Part shown: one piece after another, positions 3,620 to 40,368 of the stretch
Layout of the letters: each line of letters opens with the position of its first letter
Numbering within the stretch: position 1 is the first letter of the stretch
Translations under genes and position numbers: made by a program
Notes under the pieces: generated by a model
What the model was told of the DNA's origin: nothing
Database searches by the model: none
Seen by the model: the letters and a program-made list of their open reading frames with translations, nothing else
DNA from: a virus
Length of the DNA: 40,368 bases
IMG/VR virus record: IMGVR_UViG_3300036829_000107
Span: 1 to 40,368 of that record
Direction: 5' to 3' (one strand)

Positions 3620-4195
3620 TCATATCTCGGTTCGGCGGTTGCGGATCCTCTCGATCCGCGCCGCCGGGCTGTGGTGGTTGAGGTAGGTCGCGGTCGTGTC
3701 CAGGTGTTTGTGGCCGAGCTGGTCTCGAATCTCCATCACCGGCACGCCCTCCTGCGCCCACTCGACCGCGGCGGTGTGCCGCAATCCGTGAGCGTGGACG
3801 CGCTTGTCGACGCCCGCGCGGGCCGCTACTCGTTTCATCATGGCGCGGACATAGCTCGTGGACACCTGCCCGCCGGCCAACGTGCAGAACAGGTGGCGGC
3901 TGCGGAGCCCGCGTGCCCGTCGCACCTCGATCCAGCGGACCACATGCACGAGCGCGCCGAGGTCGATCCCGACCGTCCGGGACTTGTCGCCCTTCCCGTG
4001 CAGCACCCGGACGCTGGCCGCGTCAGTGTCCACATCGGACACTTTCAGGGCCAACGCTTCGGACACCCGCAAGCCGGCGCCGTACATCATGGCGATCAGC
4101 GCCCGGTTGCGGACGCCGGTCGCGGCGACCGGGGACGGTGCGAGCAAGATCGCGCGCGCTTCCTCCCGGGTCAAGATCTCTACCGGGTACTTCAA
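3620..4195 (-). CDS. Short tyrosine recombinase/integrase
   Basis: I chose TTG 4195, seven bases after AAGGAG; the frame extends to an ATG at 4216, but that lies inside the upstream palindrome. The 191-aa product is essentially a phage integrase catalytic domain. It has R43 in GLRVSEAL, K68 in HGKGDK, H136-x-x-R139 in HGLRHT, H162 in LGHKH and nucleophile Y171 in TATYLNH. All expected catalytic positions are present. It lacks the N-terminal arm-binding and SAM-like core-binding domains of typical 300-400 aa integrases. A 42-bp palindrome lies directly upstream. It may integrate the phage or resolve multimers, and no choice can be made from sequence alone. Confidence 0.9.
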   Translation of the reverse strand: MKYPVEILTREEARAILLAPSPVAATGVRNRALIAMMYGAGLRVSEALALKVSDVDTDAASVRVLHGKGDKSRTVGIDLGALVHVVRWIEVRRARGLRSRHLFCTLAGGQVSTSYVRAMMKRVAARAGVDKRVHAHGLRHTAAVEWAQEGVPVMEIRDQLGHKHLDTTATYLNHHSPAARIERIRNRRTEI

Positions 4196-4211
4196 TGTTG
4201 ATCTCCTTCGA

Positions 4212-4253
4212 CGCATAGAGTGTCGAATCCCTGACGATTCGACACTCTATGCG
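4212..4253. repeat. Palindrome upstream of recombinase (candidate recombination site or operator)
   Basis: Two 18-bp perfect arms (4212-4229 and 4236-4253) surround the 6-base centre CCTGAC. The arm contains ATAGAGTGTCGA, and a related CGATACTCTAT occurs again at 4291-4301. The arm/spacer layout resembles core sites of tyrosine recombinases (inverted binding sites around a 6-8 base overlap). It could equally be an autoregulatory operator, or an RNA hairpin next to the Shine-Dalgarno at 4203-4208. Confidence 0.65.
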
Positions 4254-4929: not shown

Positions 4930-4948
4930 GGTCTGACTCCTCTAGCTT

Positions 4949-5011: not shown

Positions 5012-5033
5012 GCCGTGCATTGCGCGTGCAGTA

Positions 5034-5101
5034 GGTTGGCAACCGTGCAAAAGGTTGGCAACCGTGCACGAGGTTGGCAACCGTGCACGAGGTTGGCAAC
5101 C
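5034..5101. repeat. Four iteron-like 19-bp direct repeats
   Basis: GGTTGGCAACC occurs at 5034, 5053, 5072 and 5091, a constant 19-bp spacing. The unit is GGTTGGCAACCGTGCACGA, with small changes in the last three bases. Each unit holds the odd-length dyad GGTTG-N-CAACC. The last copy touches the stop codon of the P-loop ATPase gene (5101-5103). The tandem array next to a replication-type gene is the layout of an iteron origin or an initiator-controlled operator. Confidence 0.75.
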
Positions 5102-6219
5102 TAGATCGACATCGGTGCCGGGTCGAGTCCGACATCGTCGCGGCTGAACCCGCGAGCTTGCTCACCGTCGACCTGTCGCCGGCTGGACTCGTGGCCGAAC
5201 AGGCCAAGCGTCCTAGCGAGCCCCATCATCTGGGCACGCTCCGGGACCAGCGCCCACTCCTCCACCATGGCGATCGGCTGAGGCAGCTCGAACAGCCGCT
5301 CCAGGATCACCGTGGTCGGCAGGAACTCGTCCGCGTCGGTGAACACGGCACGCACGCCGGCCAGCACTTCTTCGGCCGGGCTGAGTACCTTGTCATCCGC
5401 CGCGTCCCACTCGCCGAGCACCATCGCGCGCGCGGCTTCTTCCACCCGCTGCGGCCAGACGCCGCCCAGGTGTTCGGCGACCCGGAACAGTACGGTCCAG
5501 ATCTCCTCCGCCCGGTTGGCGATGCGGTCCGGCATGAGCCCATCGATCGGGATCGACAGGACCGCCCGGTAGTTGTTCACGCCCCAACGACGCAAGCGCC
5601 GCATGAGGCCGTACAACCGCGAGTCGTAGATCTCCGGGTTGAACCGGTCCACGTAGTAGTCGCGTGGCTTCGGCTCTAGCACGATCGAGATGGTCCGCGA
5701 CCGCAGCGTCTCGAAGTTGGCGTGCGTCAAGAACAGGTTGGCGTTCTTGCCGTTCATCACGATCGGGCCGTACACGTTCTGCCGGTCGGCCTCGTTGGAC
5801 CGCTGCCGGGTGACGCTCGATCCGCGCTTGTAACCGCCGTTCAGGATCGCTCGCATAGCGAGCTTGCCCGAGCCGCGGCCGAAGTACGTGTCGATCTCAT
5901 CGAATCCGACCGTGGCGTGGTCAACGTTCATCAGCGTCGTGATCGATGGCGGGGTGGGCTCTAGCACCATCTCACCGTTGAACGACAGCTTGGTGACCAA
6001 CTCCGTGGCGAGCGACTTGCCGGATCCCGCTTGCTTGCTGAGAAAGGCAAGCCGCGGCGTGATGTACGGCTGGAATTCCTCGTCCGCGTTCCGGAGGTGA
6101 GTGTGCTCCACCCACAAGGTCATCACCGTGGACGCATGCTTGTTGGGGAGGTACATGAACTGGTCGAATACCGATTCAACCTCCGCCGCGAGCAACTGGT
6201 CTGGCGTTAGCTCCTTCAT
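5101..6219 (-). CDS. P-loop ATPase, DUF3631-like, probable replication protein
   Basis: Starts at ATG 6219 with AGGAAGCAGACC upstream. The 372-aa product has a Walker A motif SKQAGSGKS (61-69), a Walker B VGFDEID (104-110), the following TYFGRG segment and a LRSRTISI region near residue 171 that could hold an arginine finger. This arrangement matches the ATPase part of DUF3631 proteins linked to plasmid and phage replication. No primase domain is fused. Four iteron-like repeats directly follow the gene, which supports a role in initiation or helicase loading. It is the only clear replication gene in the window. Confidence 0.78.
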   Translation of the reverse strand: MKELTPDQLLAAEVESVFDQFMYLPNKHASTVMTLWVEHTHLRNADEEFQPYITPRLAFLSKQAGSGKSLATELVTKLSFNGEMVLEPTPPSITTLMNVDHATVGFDEIDTYFGRGSGKLAMRAILNGGYKRGSSVTRQRSNEADRQNVYGPIVMNGKNANLFLTHANFETLRSRTISIVLEPKPRDYYVDRFNPEIYDSRLYGLMRRLRRWGVNNYRAVLSIPIDGLMPDRIANRAEEIWTVLFRVAEHLGGVWPQRVEEAARAMVLGEWDAADDKVLSPAEEVLAGVRAVFTDADEFLPTTVILERLFELPQPIAMVEEWALVPERAQMMGLARTLGLFGHESSRRQVDGEQARGFSRDDVGLDPAPMSI

Positions 6220-6241
6220 GGTCTGCTTCCTGGCTGGTAGA

Positions 6242-6300
6242 GATGGGCTGAACCGCCCGAGCGCGGCCGGAGCTACTCCGGCCGCACCCTCGATGGTTCA
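6242..6300 (-). repeat. Intercistronic stem-loop element, type B copy 2
   Basis: Outer CTGAACC/GGTTCA arms enclose a 10-bp inner stem GCGGCCGGAG/CTCCGGCCGC with loop CTA. The inner stem differs from other copies at paired positions. It lies just upstream of the P-loop ATPase gene. Confidence 0.75.
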
Positions 6301-6329
6301 CCTCCGAGTATAGCAGAACTTACGATTGG

Positions 6330-6647
6330 TCAGTCGCGCGCGTATCCCCAAAAGGCATCAACCTCCTCGGGGTAGGGCTCGATGTCCCAGTCGTCGTGGT
6401 CGGCCGCGTCCTCGTTCACGTACGCGTCGGCCTCATCGACCAACTCGTACCGCGGTGAGCTGACCACCGGCTTGGTCACCCACTCCGCGGCGTTGGCCAT
6501 CACGCGCGCCGCGATCGCGCGCGCCGTGACCGCATCCTCGTACTTGTCGTGGTCGTAGTGATCACCCACCAGCACGCTGCGAGCGGCCTCATCGGCCGCC
6601 CGGAACTCGGCGAGTGCGTCGCGCAGACGATCGAGATCGTCAGTCAT
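6330..6647 (-). CDS. Acidic hypothetical protein, 105 aa
   Basis: Starts at ATG 6647, with AGAGGAAATCATC upstream. The product is strongly acidic, with helices in the first 60 residues and an Asp/Glu/Tyr/Trp-rich tail ending in FWGYARD. Such acidic small proteins are common in phage early regions, and some mimic DNA, but nothing here proves that. It lies between type B elements and is likely cotranscribed with its neighbours. Confidence 0.7.
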   Translation of the reverse strand: MTDDLDRLRDALAEFRAADEAARSVLVGDHYDHDKYEDAVTARAIAARVMANAAEWVTKPVVSSPRYELVDEADAYVNEDAADHDDWDIEPYPEEVDAFWGYARD

Positions 6648-6670
6648 GATGATTTCCTCTTGCTTGTTCC

Positions 6671-6731
6671 GATGGGCTGAACCGCCCGCGGCACGGCTGG
6701 ACCTAGTCCAGCCGGCCGCTCGATGGTTCAG
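6671..6731 (-). repeat. Intercistronic stem-loop element, type B copy 3
   Basis: The inner stem CGGCTGGAC/GTCCAGCCG (9 bp, loop CTA) lies inside the outer CTGAACC/GGTTCAG arms. The TGA stop of the 6728-7012 gene is part of the element. The 61 bases are identical to 7031-7091. Confidence 0.8.
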
Positions 6732-7012
6732 ACGTCGCGGTACTGCCGGCCGTACCTGACGGCGGTCACCTGGTCATTCGGTCCCAACACGTCGCCCGAT
6801 CCATGATCGGAACTGCGGTGCATCAGCAGGAATGCCGGCCGCCATCCGGTGGTCACACCTACGGTGCCGGTGCGCACGTACTCATCGTTCTTGACCTTGA
6901 TGCGATCACCCGAGTTGAACCAGCGGACGAACGCGGGCGCTAGCTCGGACGCGTCGAACTTGTCGCCATACTGGGCGCGCTTGCGTGCCACGAACTCGTC
7001 ATACCTTGACAT
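6728..7012 (-). CDS. Hypothetical protein, 94 aa
   Basis: I chose ATG 7012 because CAGGAAGAAGATC precedes it; the frame is open further upstream into the stem-loop element. The product starts MSRYDEFVARKRAQYGDKF and has a beta-like centre (GDRIKVKNDEYVRTGTVGVTTGWRP) resembling a small SH3-type barrel. This recalls phage proteins with KOW-like strands, but no confident family exists. It is bounded on both sides by identical type B elements. Confidence 0.7.
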   Translation of the reverse strand: MSRYDEFVARKRAQYGDKFDASELAPAFVRWFNSGDRIKVKNDEYVRTGTVGVTTGWRPAFLLMHRSSDHGSGDVLGPNDQVTAVRYGRQYRDV

Positions 7013-7030
7013 GATCTTCTTCCTGTCTGT

Positions 7031-7091
7031 GATGGGCTGAACCGCCCGCGGCACGGCTGGACCTAGTCCAGCCGGCCGCTCGATGGTTCAG
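7031..7091 (-). repeat. Intercistronic stem-loop element, type B copy 4
   Basis: Identical over 61 bases to copy 3, including the CGGCTGGAC/GTCCAGCCG inner stem. The TGA of the 7088-7486 gene lies in the outer arm. Exact identity between two copies flanking one gene suggests recent duplication or conversion. Confidence 0.8.
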
Positions 7092-7486
7092 TACGTCCGG
7101 ACCGACCCGCCGGCAGCGAAGTCGTAGATCGCTAGCTCATCGTGCGAGCGAGCGAGCGCTAGCGCTCGCTCGCGGTCGTGCACCAGCGTCGGCATGTCGA
7201 GGTAGATCCGGCCGTCGGCCGGGTCGCGCCATCCGCCTAGCAGAGCGCCAGGCACGGCCAGCGCGGCCTCGTTCGTGATCATGTAGCTCATGATCGTTCC
7301 GGGGGTGACCTCGGCGTAGATCCGCTCGTGCTCCGGGTTGACCGAGACGGCGTAGCCGTCGGTCACGTCATCCAGCGTCGCGGGGTCAATGGTGAAACCA
7401 CCATCGGCCACCGTGACGCGCTGCGCTAGCTCGGTCAACCGCGCGTCCACTTGCAGGAGCGCGTCGACCTCGTGTGCGGTTGTCAT
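7088..7486 (-). CDS. Hypothetical protein, 132 aa
   Basis: Starts at ATG 7486 with GAGAGAAGAAGATC upstream. The product is mixed alpha/beta with many Asp, Ala and Val residues. Its central part (IYAEVTPGTIMSYMITNEAAL) could be a short membrane-associated or core segment, although it is not hydrophobic enough for a clear span. No family is recognised. It is cotranscribed with its neighbours by position, with structured spacers on both sides. Confidence 0.7.
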   Translation of the reverse strand: MTTAHEVDALLQVDARLTELAQRVTVADGGFTIDPATLDDVTDGYAVSVNPEHERIYAEVTPGTIMSYMITNEAALAVPGALLGGWRDPADGRIYLDMPTLVHDRERALALARSHDELAIYDFAAGGSVRTY

Positions 7487-8280: not shown

Positions 8281-8341
8281 TGGACTAAACCGTCCGTTAC
8301 GGGCAGGCCCACGAGGGGCCTGCCCGACGCGCGCGGTTCAG
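8281..8341 (-). repeat. Intercistronic stem-loop element, type B copy 6
   Basis: A diverged copy with an 11-bp inner stem CGGGCAGGCCC/GGGCCTGCCCG (8300-8310 and 8316-8326) around ACGAG. The outer arm ends in GGTTCAG and contains the TGA of the 8338-8508 gene. Confidence 0.7.
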
Positions 8342-8508
8342 CGCGGAGCGTGCCACGGGGTGGTCGACTCCACGGTGAGGTCGTCGATCATGTGGGCCCG
8401 GATGAGCTGGTAGGCCACCTGATCAACTACGAACTCCTGTGCGGACACCATGCGCTCCGCCCGTAGCCGGTCGGCGGCGGGCAGGGACGAGGTCAGTACA
8501 GTGCTCAT
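8338..8508 (-). CDS. Hypothetical protein, 56 aa
   Basis: A short frame starting at ATG 8508 with a strong GAGGAG upstream and TGATC next to the start. The product begins MSTVLTSSLPAADRLRAERM and is mostly helical, with no signal peptide or motif. It is the first gene after the parS-containing gap, so it may head the left-arm transcript. A longer frame on the same strand in another phase (8423-8617) overlaps it but has a poor ribosome binding site. Confidence 0.62.
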   Translation of the reverse strand: MSTVLTSSLPAADRLRAERMVSAQEFVVDQVAYQLIRAHMIDDLTVESTTPWHAPR

Positions 8509-8531
8509 GATCATTACTCCTCATGTAGATG

Positions 8532-8593
8532 GATCTTGTGATCCGCTCTGGCCATGTTTCACGTGAAACATGGCCACGGCGCATCGCAAGATC
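8532..8593. promoter_or_regulatory. parS-like centromere palindrome within a 62-bp dyad
   Basis: The centre contains TGTTTCACGTGAAACA at 8555-8570, the chromosomal parS consensus bound by host ParB (established for Bacillus and Streptomyces). The perfect palindrome extends over 28 bases (8549-8576). A wider set of paired arms, GATCTTG at 8532 and CAAGATC ending at 8593, is centred on the same point with few mismatches. No ParA or ParB gene is seen in the window, so host ParB would be the binder. Confidence 0.8.
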
Positions 8594-8727
8594 AACTAAT
8601 TTTCCGCCACCCATCACCGGGACCAGCGGGACGCAACTCGGCGGGTCGCTTCGTAGGGCTTAGCTACCGGTTGACGCCGCGGCTCCCAAGGTCTGCCGCC
8701 GACTATGACTACGCGCGTGAGCGCGGG

Positions 8728-8744
8728 TGATCTTTCAAAGATCA
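8728..8744. repeat. Palindrome TGATCTTT-C-AAAGATCA
   Basis: 8-bp arms surround a single base, with a GATC in each arm. It lies in the gene-poor gap between parS and the TGATCA cluster and may be another protein-binding site of the same series. Confidence 0.5.
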
Positions 8745-8838
8745 AGTGCACCGCCGGCTCGCGCGCTCGCGCGCGCGGCCCCGCGGGCCCTTCCCGTTCC
8801 ACCCTTTCGGGCTTGCCCTAAGCTTACAGGCCGTTCCA

Positions 8839-9014
8839 TGATCAAGATATAGGCCAAATGGGTGATGTTGCATTCGTCCAATGATCTACAGTGATCAACA
8901 ATGTTGATCACTCGTGATCACCTGCTTGATCATGTCCAGTCCTGGACATGATCAACATAGGTGGACACCTTGTCGATCATGACCCCCCTTGGTCAAGATC
9001 AACAAGGTTGATCA
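8839..9014. repeat. Cluster of TGATCA sites with a 30-bp palindrome
   Basis: TGATCA occurs at 8839, 8892, 8905, 8915, 8927, 8949 and 9009, with further GATC variants at 8882, 8974 and 8996. Positions 8926-8955 form a palindrome with perfect 14-bp arms (starting TTGATCATGTCC) around TC, including two of the sites. Several spacings are near 10-13 bp, one helical turn. This suggests cooperative binding of a repressor, initiator or architectural protein. Confidence 0.65.
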
Positions 9015-9094
9015 TGGCAAGGGTTATAGCAAGAATCGTATCTGCGGGAGATTTCCAGAAATGACTTTAGTTGATCTTGATATGTTTTTTTGTA

Positions 9095-14534: not shown

Positions 14535-16475
14535 GTGGCCAAGCGACGTCGCCGCCCGACTCAGGGGCAGCCCCATCCACTGCCCCCCGCCAGCGACGAC
14601 GTGCGTCGGGTGATCCGCGAGGAGCTGACGAAGGCGCTCTCGCTGCCGCCCGGCACCTCTACCCACGCCGTCACCGCCAGCTACCTCGCGCAGCTCCAGC
14701 AGCGCAACGGGCTCACCTACGGCCAACCCGAGTCCGCGCTGACTCGCGACCCGTACGAGGACGTGAACTTCGGGCCGGGGACGCCGCTCTATCCGTCCCC
14801 GCTCGACCCGCCGCTGCAATCCGGTCGCCCCGCTCCCCGCAAGTGGGAGTACCCGGCCACCTGGAACCTGCAGACCACGACTACGCGCGCCATCCCCTGG
14901 TCGGTGCTGAGAGACGCCGCGGACCAGGTGTCCATCATGCGGGCGTGCATTGAGGTAAGTAAGGCCTCGATCACCGGGCTGGAGTGGAGCTTCGGCATCA
15001 ACTCCGCCCGCGCTCGGCACCTGGCCCGGCGTCAAGGCACCTCCGATCGCGCCGTGACTTCGGACCTGCAGGACAAGTACGCCGACGAGATCGAGCGGCT
15101 ACACACCTGGTGGACCAAGCCAGACCGCATCAACAACTGGACGTTCACCGAGTGGCTCGGAGCAATGTTGGAGGACCAATTGGTCCTCGATGCCGTCGCG
15201 CTCTATCCGCACCTTCAGTTGAACGGAGACCTCCATTCGCTGGAACTGTTGGATGCCACGACCATCAAGCCGTTACTCGACTATCGCGGAGCGACACCGC
15301 AGCCTCCGTATGCGGCGTTCCAACAAATTCTGTGGGGCTTTCCGCGCGGAGAATTCAACCAATCGCCGCCAGAACACGTCGATCATGAATTCATCTCGGC
15401 GGTCTACGGTCGGACCCAAGGCATCGAGGCGCCCACCGACGCGCTGATCTACAAGGTCAGGAACAGGCGGACCAGGGGCCCCTACGGGTTCAGCAACGTC
15501 GAGCAGGCGCTCACCGACGTCGATCTGTGGCTCAAGCGCTACGACTGGCTGCGCAGCGAGTACACGGCCGGCGTGACGCCGGAAATGCTCGTAATGGTGG
15601 ACACCACGATGACGCCGGAGCAATTGCGGCAATACGAGAGCGTGTTCAACGATGAGTTGAGCGGGCGCACCAATGAGCGCCACCGCGCGCGATTCCTGCC
15701 GGCCGGCTTTAACGCCGAATACCCGCACGGCAAGGACGCGAAGTTCACCAGCGACTTCGATCTGCACTTGATCAGGTTGATCTGCGCGGCGTTCGATGTG
15801 CTGCCCACCTCGCTGGGCTTCGTGCCCAACAGCAACCCCGGTATGGGCGGTTCCAGCCTCCAGCAAGGTGAGCAAGAGACCCAGCTGATGCGCACCACCA
15901 AGCCGACCGCGCAGTGGATCATCGACATGATCAACGAAGTATCGATGAACTACCTGGGCATGCCGGAGGAGGTGACCTTCCGGTTCCACGGGTTGGACGA
16001 TGAGAACGAGGAGCGGGAGGCGAACCTGCTCACCGGCTACATCGGGAGCGGCCTGCAGACCCTCAACGAGGGCCGCGACCAGCTCAACCTGCCCCGCTAC
16101 GCCTTCCCGGAGGCGGATCAGCCCTTCCTGAACACCCCGACCGGCCCCGCGTTCTTGAACGTCGAGGTGCAGCCGACCGCGATCCCGGGCAACATCCCGT
16201 CCGCCCCGCAGAACCATGAGGGGAATCGGGCGCCGGCACCGAAGCCGGCGATGCCCGCTCCGGCGGCCAAGCCCGCGCTGCCCGCCGCCAAGGGCGATGC
16301 CGCCGCGGAGCGCAAGAAGTTCCTCACCTTCGCCAAGCGCAACGGCGATAAGTGGCGGGACTTCGCGTTCAAGTGCTACTCGCCGGAGGTGTCCGAGGCC
16401 GCCAACCGGCTCGGCGCGGCCGGCGATCTGGACGCGTGCAAGGCGCTGTTCGATCTGCACGACGATGGCGAATGA
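14535..16475 (+). CDS. Portal protein
   Basis: GTG 14535 with AAGGGG upstream. The 646-aa product carries typical portal blocks: a central region with DALIYKVRNRRTRGPYGFSNVE (with the preceding PT), a wing/stem helix containing LIRLICAAFDVLPTSLGF, then QGEQETQLMRTT. It forms the dodecameric DNA entry ring and docks the terminase. A Pro/Ala-rich linker (about 555-590) precedes a C-terminal helical domain (FAKRNGDKWRDFAF...), which is unusual for a portal and may serve assembly. The downstream gene overlaps its end by 11 bases. Confidence 0.93.
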   Translation: MAKRRRRPTQGQPHPLPPASDDVRRVIREELTKALSLPPGTSTHAVTASYLAQLQQRNGLTYGQPESALTRDPYEDVNFGPGTPLYPSPLDPPLQSGRPAPRKWEYPATWNLQTTTTRAIPWSVLRDAADQVSIMRACIEVSKASITGLEWSFGINSARARHLARRQGTSDRAVTSDLQDKYADEIERLHTWWTKPDRINNWTFTEWLGAMLEDQLVLDAVALYPHLQLNGDLHSLELLDATTIKPLLDYRGATPQPPYAAFQQILWGFPRGEFNQSPPEHVDHEFISAVYGRTQGIEAPTDALIYKVRNRRTRGPYGFSNVEQALTDVDLWLKRYDWLRSEYTAGVTPEMLVMVDTTMTPEQLRQYESVFNDELSGRTNERHRARFLPAGFNAEYPHGKDAKFTSDFDLHLIRLICAAFDVLPTSLGFVPNSNPGMGGSSLQQGEQETQLMRTTKPTAQWIIDMINEVSMNYLGMPEEVTFRFHGLDDENEEREANLLTGYIGSGLQTLNEGRDQLNLPRYAFPEADQPFLNTPTGPAFLNVEVQPTAIPGNIPSAPQNHEGNRAPAPKPAMPAPAAKPALPAAKGDAAAERKKFLTFAKRNGDKWRDFAFKCYSPEVSEAANRLGAAGDLDACKALFDLHDDGE

Positions 16476-37858: not shown

Positions 37859-40368
37859 ATGACCAGCACCCCAGTCGCGGGCACGCCGACCTCGGCTTCC
37901 ACTAATAGCGGAACATCTCTTGCAATTCCGTACCCGACTGGCCTTTCCTCCGGCCAAGTGTTGGTGCTGTCGGCGGCAAACGGAACACCGGCGACAATGT
38001 CCGCCCCGTCGGGGTCGGGGTGGGCATTGCTCGATTCTGGGTCATCGGTTCTAAGCGATTTGACCGCCGTCGTGTATTGGAAGGTGGCGACCGGTTCCGA
38101 GACTGGATCGGCCAGCGTGACCTGGTCGGGCTCCGGCCCTGGTACTGGGACCATGGTGGCGCTCGGCCAGGTGGCGACTTCGTCGCAGATCACCTCGCAT
38201 GGGCATAGTGTCTCCACCTCGACTTCCGCGAGTTCCCCGACGGCGCCTACGTTGTCCCCCGCGCCGAACGCCACCGACCTTGTGCTGCGTTACTACCAGT
38301 GCTCGACTAACGCACACAGCACCATCACGTCCTTGTCGGCGCCAGGTGGCACGTGGTCGACGCTAAGCAATGCGCACACCACGGGCACGAGTTCGGCGTA
38401 TAACAACGGGTCACTGTTAGCGTCGAAGACCGCGGGTACCGATAACCAGACGGTCACAGTGGCGGGATCGACGCCGGCCAGCGCGTGGATGGTTACTTCC
38501 GTCGCCGTAGCGGGTCTAGCCCTCACCGTCTGGAACGTCGCCGCGACGCTGTCCGCGTCCACCGGTCTGACATCGGCCGCCGCGGTCACCAAGCCGGCCG
38601 CCGCCACGCTGAGCGCGTCCGCCGGACTCACGTCGGCCGCGATCGTCACGCACCGACCGGCGGCCACTCTGGCGGCAACCGCCGGGCTGACCAGCGCGGC
38701 GGCGATCACTGAACGTCCGGCGACGGCACTGTCGGCCGCTACTGGTCTCACGGCTGCCGCGAAGCTGACGAAGTTCCCGTCGGCGACTCTGCCGGGCACC
38801 ACCGGTCTGACGTCGGCTGCGCACGACATCACGACGCCGGCCGCGATGCTGAGCGCCTCCGCTGGGCTCACGGCGGCCCCCCACCTCGTTATCCCTGTTT
38901 CAGCAAGCCCCCTGGCGGCGCACGGAGGGCTCACCAGCGCCGCCTCGATCACCGAACGCCCGGCGGCGACACTGTCGGGTACCACCGGTCTGTCCGCCGC
39001 CGCGCAGCTAACGAAGTTCCCGACGGCCACGCTGCCGGGCGTCACGAGTCTGTCCGCGACCGCGACCGATCTCACCGGGGCCGCCGCCACGCTGAGCGCG
39101 TCCGCCGGCATGACCAGCACCGCCGAGGTCAGTATCCCCCTAGCGGTCGTTCCGCTGGCCGCGATCGCGTCGCTCTTCGTGACGCTGGTTCCGACCGAGC
39201 TGGCCGCCGCGACGCTGGCGGCGAATGGTGGACTGACCGGCGCCGCCTCGATCACGAAGCTTCCTGCGGCGACGCTGAGTGTCACCGCCGGGCTCACCGC
39301 CGCCACGGTGACCGGTACGTCTGGCTCGGCCACCCTGTCGGTGACCACCGGTCTGTCCGCTACAGCAGCGGTCAACTACCTGCCGTCCGCCACTCTGGCG
39401 GCCGAGGGCGGACTGTCCTCGACGGCAACGGTCGAGTACCTGCCGTCCGCCACCCTGGCGGTCACCGCCGGACTCACGTCGTCCGTCGGTATCACCGAAC
39501 GTCCAGCGGCGGCACTGTCGGGCACCACCGGTCTGTCGGCAGACGCCAAGCTAACGAAGTTCCCGGTCGCCACCTTGGCGGCGCACGGTGGACTGACCAG
39601 CAACGCCTCGATCGACTATCACCCGGCCGCCACTCTGCCGGCGCACGGTGGACTGACTGCCGCGGCGTTGCACACCGCGTTGTCGCAGGCGACCCTGTCC
39701 GCGTCCACGTTCATCTCGCTGGTGCCCACCGAGTTCGGCGCCGCGACGTTGCCGGGTGCCGCCGGTCTATCGGCCACCGCGGTGGTAACGCAGCTCCCGG
39801 CCGCGACGCTCAGTGCCGCCACCGGCCTGACGTCGGTCGCTCAGGTCACCGAACAGGCCGTCGCCACCCTGGCGGCACAGGGTGGACTGACCGCGACCGC
39901 GTTGTTCGCGCGGGATCCTGGCACCGCCATCTTGGCGGCCACCGCCGGTCTAACCTCATCGGCCCTCGCCGGTCCCCGGGGTAGCGCGACGATCGCGGGA
40001 CAGTCTCAGCTCACCGTCGGGCCGTACTCGCTATTCCCCTGCACGACGCTGTACCCGAGTGACACGCTCTACCCGTCTACCGGCGCCTGGGTCCACACCT
40101 TCCCGAGCGCCAGCCTGTCGGTGTCCGCCGGACTCGTGGCAGCACTGGCCGGGGGACACATCCCGGTCGCTACCACCCTGAGCGCGACGACGGGGCTCAC
40201 GGCGAGCGCGACGCGCGTCAAGGTAGCGAGCGCGGCCCTGGCCGCCTCCTCGGCGTTGACGGCCAACGCCACGATCAGCTACCTGCCGAGTGCGACGTTG
40301 TCGGCGACCGCCGCACTGATCACCGAACCGGTAGACACCACCCGGGCGGCGGCGGTACTAGCCGCGCA
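37859..40368 (+). CDS. Long repetitive tail fibre, 3' end beyond the window
   Basis: ATG 37859 with GGGGGGCAGCC upstream; the frame stays open for 836 codons to the right edge. The first 225 residues are non-repetitive and beta-rich. From about residue 225 the chain becomes some 28-30 repeats of about 20 residues, with a consensus like AATLSATAGLTSAASITERP, a regular TL-x5-GLT pattern with alternating small residues. This suggests a beta-solenoid or fibrous stalk. Two places break the register (near 39160-39215 and 40020-40100). The last 120 bases still follow the repeat. Adhesion to the host surface is the likely role. Confidence 0.85.
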   Translation, partial: MTSTPVAGTPTSASTNSGTSLAIPYPTGLSSGQVLVLSAANGTPATMSAPSGSGWALLDSGSSVLSDLTAVVYWKVATGSETGSASVTWSGSGPGTGTMVALGQVATSSQITSHGHSVSTSTSASSPTAPTLSPAPNATDLVLRYYQCSTNAHSTITSLSAPGGTWSTLSNAHTTGTSSAYNNGSLLASKTAGTDNQTVTVAGSTPASAWMVTSVAVAGLALTVWNVAATLSASTGLTSAAAVTKPAAATLSASAGLTSAAIVTHRPAATLAATAGLTSAAAITERPATALSAATGLTAAAKLTKFPSATLPGTTGLTSAAHDITTPAAMLSASAGLTAAPHLVIPVSASPLAAHGGLTSAASITERPAATLSGTTGLSAAAQLTKFPTATLPGVTSLSATATDLTGAAATLSASAGMTSTAEVSIPLAVVPLAAIASLFVTLVPTELAAATLAANGGLTGAASITKLPAATLSVTAGLTAATVTGTSGSATLSVTTGLSATAAVNYLPSATLAAEGGLSSTATVEYLPSATLAVTAGLTSSVGITERPAAALSGTTGLSADAKLTKFPVATLAAHGGLTSNASIDYHPAATLPAHGGLTAAALHTALSQATLSASTFISLVPTEFGAATLPGAAGLSATAVVTQLPAATLSAATGLTSVAQVTEQAVATLAAQGGLTATALFARDPGTAILAATAGLTSSALAGPRGSATIAGQSQLTVGPYSLFPCTTLYPSDTLYPSTGAWVHTFPSASLSVSAGLVAALAGGHIPVATTLSATTGLTASATRVKVASAALAASSALTANATISYLPSATLSATAALITEPVDTTRAAAVLAA

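Follow-up and report, generated by a model that had tools for sequence, protein, structure and literature searches.

A chromosomal-type parS site in a virus related to actinobacteriophages and its possible recognition by host ParB

A viral contig of 40,368 bp, analysed over its whole length and referred to below as the window, contains at positions 8555-8570 an exact 16-bp parS core, TGTTTCACGTGAAACA, the consensus ParB site of bacterial chromosomes. It is proposed here, with about an even chance of being correct, that this would be a genuine chromosomal-type parS, recognised by the ParB of an actinobacterial host and serving the positioning or segregation of the phage through host ParA or SMC. 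Binding of the core by host ParB, taken on its own, is considered very probable. ParB binding, spreading and a benefit to the phage are all inferred.

The parS core and its surroundings

The test for a chromosomal-type parS gave an exact match to the 16-bp ParB consensus (consensus as in PMC7022226), and no other match to the core was found in the window when up to three mismatches were allowed. The core is nested in two larger symmetric structures:

8555..8570, no strand: 16-bp parS core, exact and single in the window, identical in the relatives L124 and L125
8549..8576, no strand: 28-bp perfect palindrome TGGCCATGTTTCACGTGAAACATGGCCA around the core (sequence and pair table)
8532..8593, no strand: 62-bp interrupted dyad, 27 of 31 pairs, with GATC at both arm ends (inverted repeat, fold and pair comparison with L124)

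A preliminary description had claimed an exact core within a 28-bp palindrome and a wider dyad, and these features were confirmed. Its view that a chance match is unlikely also stands, with only 1.4e-6 exact cores expected by chance in 40 kb at the GC content of the window. Moreover, at no 16-mer position of the window other than the core do the flanks reach at least 17 symmetric pairs out of 23. The predicted fold of the 62-bp dyad is very stable on both strands (-42.9 to -44.5 kcal/mol, z about -9). As a sequence feature, the host-type parS appears well supported.

The dyad appears to lie in non-coding DNA. It is upstream of a leftward gene, about 24 bp from the start codon, and bounds on the left a region of about 500 bp:

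8338..8514, minus strand: small leftward gene, ATG start probably at 8508, Shine-Dalgarno sequence GAGGAG at 8518-8523 (reading frame)
8594..9094, no strand: non-coding DNA, about 500 bp, where TGATCA/TTGATC motifs are densest in the window; mostly conserved in the alignment with L124
8890..8912, no strand: palindrome AGTGATCAACA-A-TGTTGATCACT, possible operator (sequence; mostly conserved in L124)
8926..8955, no strand: palindrome TTGATCATGTCCAG-TC-CTGGACATGATCAA, possible operator (sequence; partly conserved in L124)

The non-coding stretch 8594..9094 is likely the control region of the leftward genes, so that the dyad lies between this region and the Shine-Dalgarno sequence of the small gene, whose product gave no family match above cut-off in a profile search. 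The dyad of L124 is similarly placed. The two palindromes at 8890-8955, built from TTGATC/GATCAA and lying beside parS, are candidate repressor or replication sites. Between 1977 and 8296, a 45-nt leader-like repeat, TCATGATCTTCTTCTCTCACTGGTAGAGCTGGGCTGAACCGCCCG, occurs in six copies before successive leftward genes; a hairpin-like repeat of 40 nt follows it at five places.

Among 199 actinobacterial genomes sampled, 78 contain the exact core and none matches a reversed control; one 3.4-Mb genome (G244) carries 108 exact cores, against 0-13 in the others sampled. Among 46 chromosomal sites from seven genomes of about 8-10 Mb, 18 lie within palindromes that add at least six, and up to 18, further perfect pairs to the core, a symmetry reached by 0.1% of random positions. 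These palindromes differ in sequence. To our knowledge, there is no explanation for the long palindromes around chromosomal parS. Since 18 of the 46 chromosomal sites share this arrangement, the dyad of the phage can be regarded as host-like, and the idea of the long dyad as a phage invention was rejected. The parS sequences of M. smegmatis (GTTTCACGTGAAAC) and C. glutamicum (TGTTNCACGTGAAACA) have been described (PMC7022226), and all 17 ParBs tested from various clades prefer parS (PMC7383237).

Conservation in relatives and spread among viruses

The window represents a fragment of a larger genome: the record lacks end repeats and, on the right, breaks off within an open reading frame. The interrupted frame, at 37859-40366, exceeds 836 codons and contains repeated ATLSATTGLTSAA-like units. 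Close relatives were found through the terminase, which is 91% identical in L124, a contig of 122,429 bp with a 127-bp direct terminal repeat that is probably complete at about 122.3 kb. Between about 1.4 and 37.4 kb of the window, the two sequences are collinear, and the aligned blocks share 77-88% DNA identity. The DNA polymerase of L124 is nearest to those of actinobacteriophages of Gordonia, Nocardia and Mycobacterium (about 40% identity). These matches point to an actinophage lineage, from which an actinobacterial host may be supposed. Terminase relatives in bacterial genomes were uninformative as to the host, the best matches (40-49%) being spread over several phyla.

All 16 core bases are kept in L124 and L125, the only two relatives reaching the region and hence a small sample, while the flanks diverge. 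Of the other relatives, L123 starts at the equivalent of window position 8651, and L122 and L126 start further right; these fall outside the comparison. Absence of the site from close relatives had been named at the outset as an observation that would speak against a parS, and the opposite was found. Within the dyad, four pairs are changed on both sides between the window and L124 and are still paired; in four others, one side alone differs. L125 has no dyad and keeps just the core, in different flanking sequence. The exact core thus persists even where the dyad is lost, which argues that the core is under selection, and not the hairpin alone. The comparison, from as few as two sequences, shows a core apparently kept for itself and suggests that the arms, where present, may be kept paired. 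The complete genome of L124 contains a single copy of the core. The GC skew of L124 peaks broadly around 20 kb, in the vicinity of the site, but too weakly to indicate an origin.

No DNA match to the region was found in phage records, and the exact 28-bp palindrome was absent from other viral contigs. The core itself is strongly enriched: among 2.9 million viral contigs it occurs in at least 120 stretches, a lower bound, compared with 5 and 11 for two control palindromes, permuted so as to retain the CACGTG centre. A ParB_N match was detected in 4 of 80 core-bearing viral records, three of them above cut-off; short records are frequent among the 80, and some could be bacterial DNA. Several are clearly phage, including L309, where two cores lie near a major head protein and a tail fibre, L319, whose terminase is related to that of the window, and L326, with terminase and portal. 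A 201-kb viral record (L069) has two cores, at 4944 and 5819, with near-identical flanks (TTGACAAAATGGAAA before, TCTGCATTGTGTCAA after) in which 16 of 23 pairs are symmetric.

One core-bearing record is the cultured Gordonia phage Orchid. Two exact cores are present in each of the complete genomes of Orchid, RobinSparkles and Gibbles, none of which gave a ParB_N or ParA match, and no core was found in the control Gordonia phages Morrissey, Upyo and Ewald. The part of the cluster CX paper covered here describes an integrase without its N-terminal domain and an attP that could not be found, and makes no mention of parS sites (PMC5559632).

Plasmid-like elements and the search for partition genes in the lineage

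To the left of the site, the window contains several elements resembling those of replication and recombination modules:

3620..4216, minus strand: truncated Xer-like tyrosine recombinase of about 190 aa, start probably TTG 4195 (PF00589, XerA/XerC models; 92% identical in L124)
4212..4253, no strand: 18-bp perfect inverted repeat with a 6-bp spacer, CGCATAGAGTGTCGAATC-CCTGAC-GATTCGACACTCTATGCG (inner arms kept in L124)
5025..5101, no strand: four 19-bp direct repeats, iteron-like, at the 3' end of the DUF3631 gene (in L124, an 18-19-bp array of a related unit in the equivalent place)
5101..6219, minus strand: DUF3631 protein with a P-loop-like GSGKS motif, candidate replication protein by inferred function (PF12307, E 1.4e-16; 56% identical in L124)

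The repeats at 5025-5101 could represent an iteron origin, and the inverted repeat, just upstream of the recombinase gene, resembles a Cre/Xer-type core site or an operator. An AlphaFold model of the DUF3631 protein (pLDDT 33) was unusable. Circumstantially, the DUF3631 gene, the iteron-like repeats and the Xer-like recombinase with its inverted repeat would fit an extrachromosomal prophage. Together with parS, they would be candidate counterparts of the replication protein with iterons, the dimer-resolution recombinase and the partition site of a P1-like phage-plasmid; a link between parS and such a module was not seen in the other phages examined. The idea that parS accompanies the DUF3631 module was rejected, as no core lies within 10 kb of the DUF3631 gene in four more distant relatives (L365-L368). 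A connection with the truncated Xer-like recombinase was likewise unsupported: no core lies in the right-hand 50 kb of the five Gordonia or Rhodococcus phages Jumbo, GMA3, Camerico, Mbo2 and Reynauld, whose recombinase is of the Orchid type. In the parts examined of these phages, therefore, the site is not tied to the plasmid-like module.

Neither ParA (PF13614) nor the ParB DNA-binding domain HTH_ParB (PF17762) was matched in the window or in the 122-kb relative L124, so that neither shows a phage-encoded parABS of the RedRock type. The preliminary description had stated that the window holds no ParA or ParB gene; this is true, although it proves little by itself because the window is about one third of a genome of about 122 kb. 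The search that it suggested, for parA, parB and further parS copies in the phage and its relatives, returned a single parS in the window and in L124 and neither ParA nor a canonical ParB, but it did find three divergent ParB-fold proteins in L124, one with an HTH-like segment. ParB-fold genes of this complete relative are located at 5040-7198 and 15031-16161 (L209), and one is DUF6551/DGQHR-like. The original notion of a host-type parS with an extended dyad is thereby retained in part: a parS occurs in a phage with no detectable partition system, its core kept in both relatives, the complete relative lacking ParA and the ParB DNA-binding domain, and the cultured Gordonia phages being alike. 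However, the dyad is not special to phages, and the lineage is not free of ParB-fold proteins.

Possible use of the site and comparison with known systems

Segregation or positioning is the likeliest use of the site. Host ParB would load at the phage parS as a CTP clamp and spread onto neighbouring phage DNA. Host ParA, perhaps with SMC, would then handle the ParB-coated genome and position it in the cell, and the host machinery would carry the extrachromosomal phage genome into daughter cells, spores or dormant cells. Against this reading stand the single core copy, both in the window and in L124, and the three ParB-fold proteins that L124 has of its own.

Transcriptional silencing comes second and is the main rival, itself rather unlikely. 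Host ParB clamps, or the dyad so close upstream of the first leftward gene, would silence or time the leftward operon. The position of the dyad between the 500-bp control region and the Shine-Dalgarno sequence, similar in L124, agrees with this possibility; one of the Orchid cores, too, separates two leftward genes and lies a short way ahead of a gene start, and in Pseudomonas overproduced ParB silences genes in the neighbourhood of parS (PMC7022226). Nevertheless, L125 holds its core in different flanking sequence, and the context of the cores in other phages is varied, some being apparently inside reading frames. A hairpin in RNA or DNA, acting as terminator, attenuator or repressor operator and containing the parS core only incidentally, is an improbable reading too. 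The stability of the fold on both strands and the four pairs changed on both sides are what such a hairpin would be expected to show, but a hairpin requires pairing and not one exact 16-mer, and here the core is invariant while the dyad is lost in L125. The enrichment of the exact 16-mer in viral DNA over equally palindromic controls and the similar arms around host parS sites also argue against it. Despite the hairpin, no intrinsic terminator was called at the dyad on either strand, and a match to the symR RNA of Rfam was rejected as sub-threshold (20 versus 61 bits).

Use of the site by a ParB-like protein of the phage, and not by host ParB, is given an equally small chance. The three ParB-fold proteins of L124, particularly the one with an HTH-like segment, would be the candidates. 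However, HTH_ParB is not matched, the HTH-bearing protein reaches only 16.4 bits with TIGR00180, whose cut-off is 58, and its HTH segment, inspected by eye, lacks the arginine and the GHAR glycine that are absolutely conserved in ParB orthologs (PMC7383237); the low score and the two missing residues make a phage ParB an unlikely user. The absence of a ParA match in L124 points the same way, as do the Orchid-type phages, which have the core and no ParB_N match. The ParBs of the Streptomyces plasmid SCP1, which have their own sites, do not bind chromosomal parS (PMC13245405). Slightly less probable still is a decoy or condensation point, titrating host ParB or recruiting SMC and thereby disturbing host segregation or compacting lytic phage DNA. 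Replicating phage copies would presumably outnumber the chromosomal sites, but for titration a single copy in each genome is a small number.

The host-ParB reading can be extended to a broader proposal, held only tentatively: several unrelated tailed actinophage lineages may have repeatedly acquired a bare host centromere site, using host ParABS in place of partition genes of their own and persisting extrachromosomally. If true, copying the host centromere may give some phages active segregation even without partition genes. This could explain the persistence of phages without an identifiable attP or parABS, such as those of Gordonia cluster CX. Isolated phages and a laboratory host allow a direct test of the reading, Orchid having been isolated on Gordonia terrae 3612.

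Compared with the parS sites of actinobacterial chromosomal ParABS systems, the site of the window shares an identical core and a long palindrome; it differs in lying in a phage genome, in single copy, without adjoining parAB or a chromosomal origin. Reliance of a phage on host ParB, proposed here, would have an analogue in phi29, a phage reported to rely on Spo0J, the ParB of its host, to become entrapped in spores (as summarised in PMC9437464). Whereas phi29 is a small virulent Bacillus phage, the present case concerns a large actinophage and several tailed actinophage lineages. The mobile element SGI1 is reported to use the ParB of its helper IncC plasmid through parS mimics (PMC10954446), and would be similar as an element with an orphan parS borrowing the ParB of another replicon. 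SGI1, however, copies a plasmid centromere, while the phage of the window copies that of the chromosome.

RedRock and other cluster A phages are also actinophages with a centromere-like site, but they encode their own ParA and ParB, and the parS of RedRock is an array of 8-bp direct repeats (PMC7157519). A further comparison is with Orchid, RobinSparkles and Gibbles (cluster CX, Orchidvirus), which have two exact cores near the right end, one of them in an extended dyad. Like the phage of the window, they have no ParA or ParB match, and one DUF932-type gene is shared. They differ in having 47% GC, a genome of 80 kb that is otherwise largely unrelated, and two sites instead of one.
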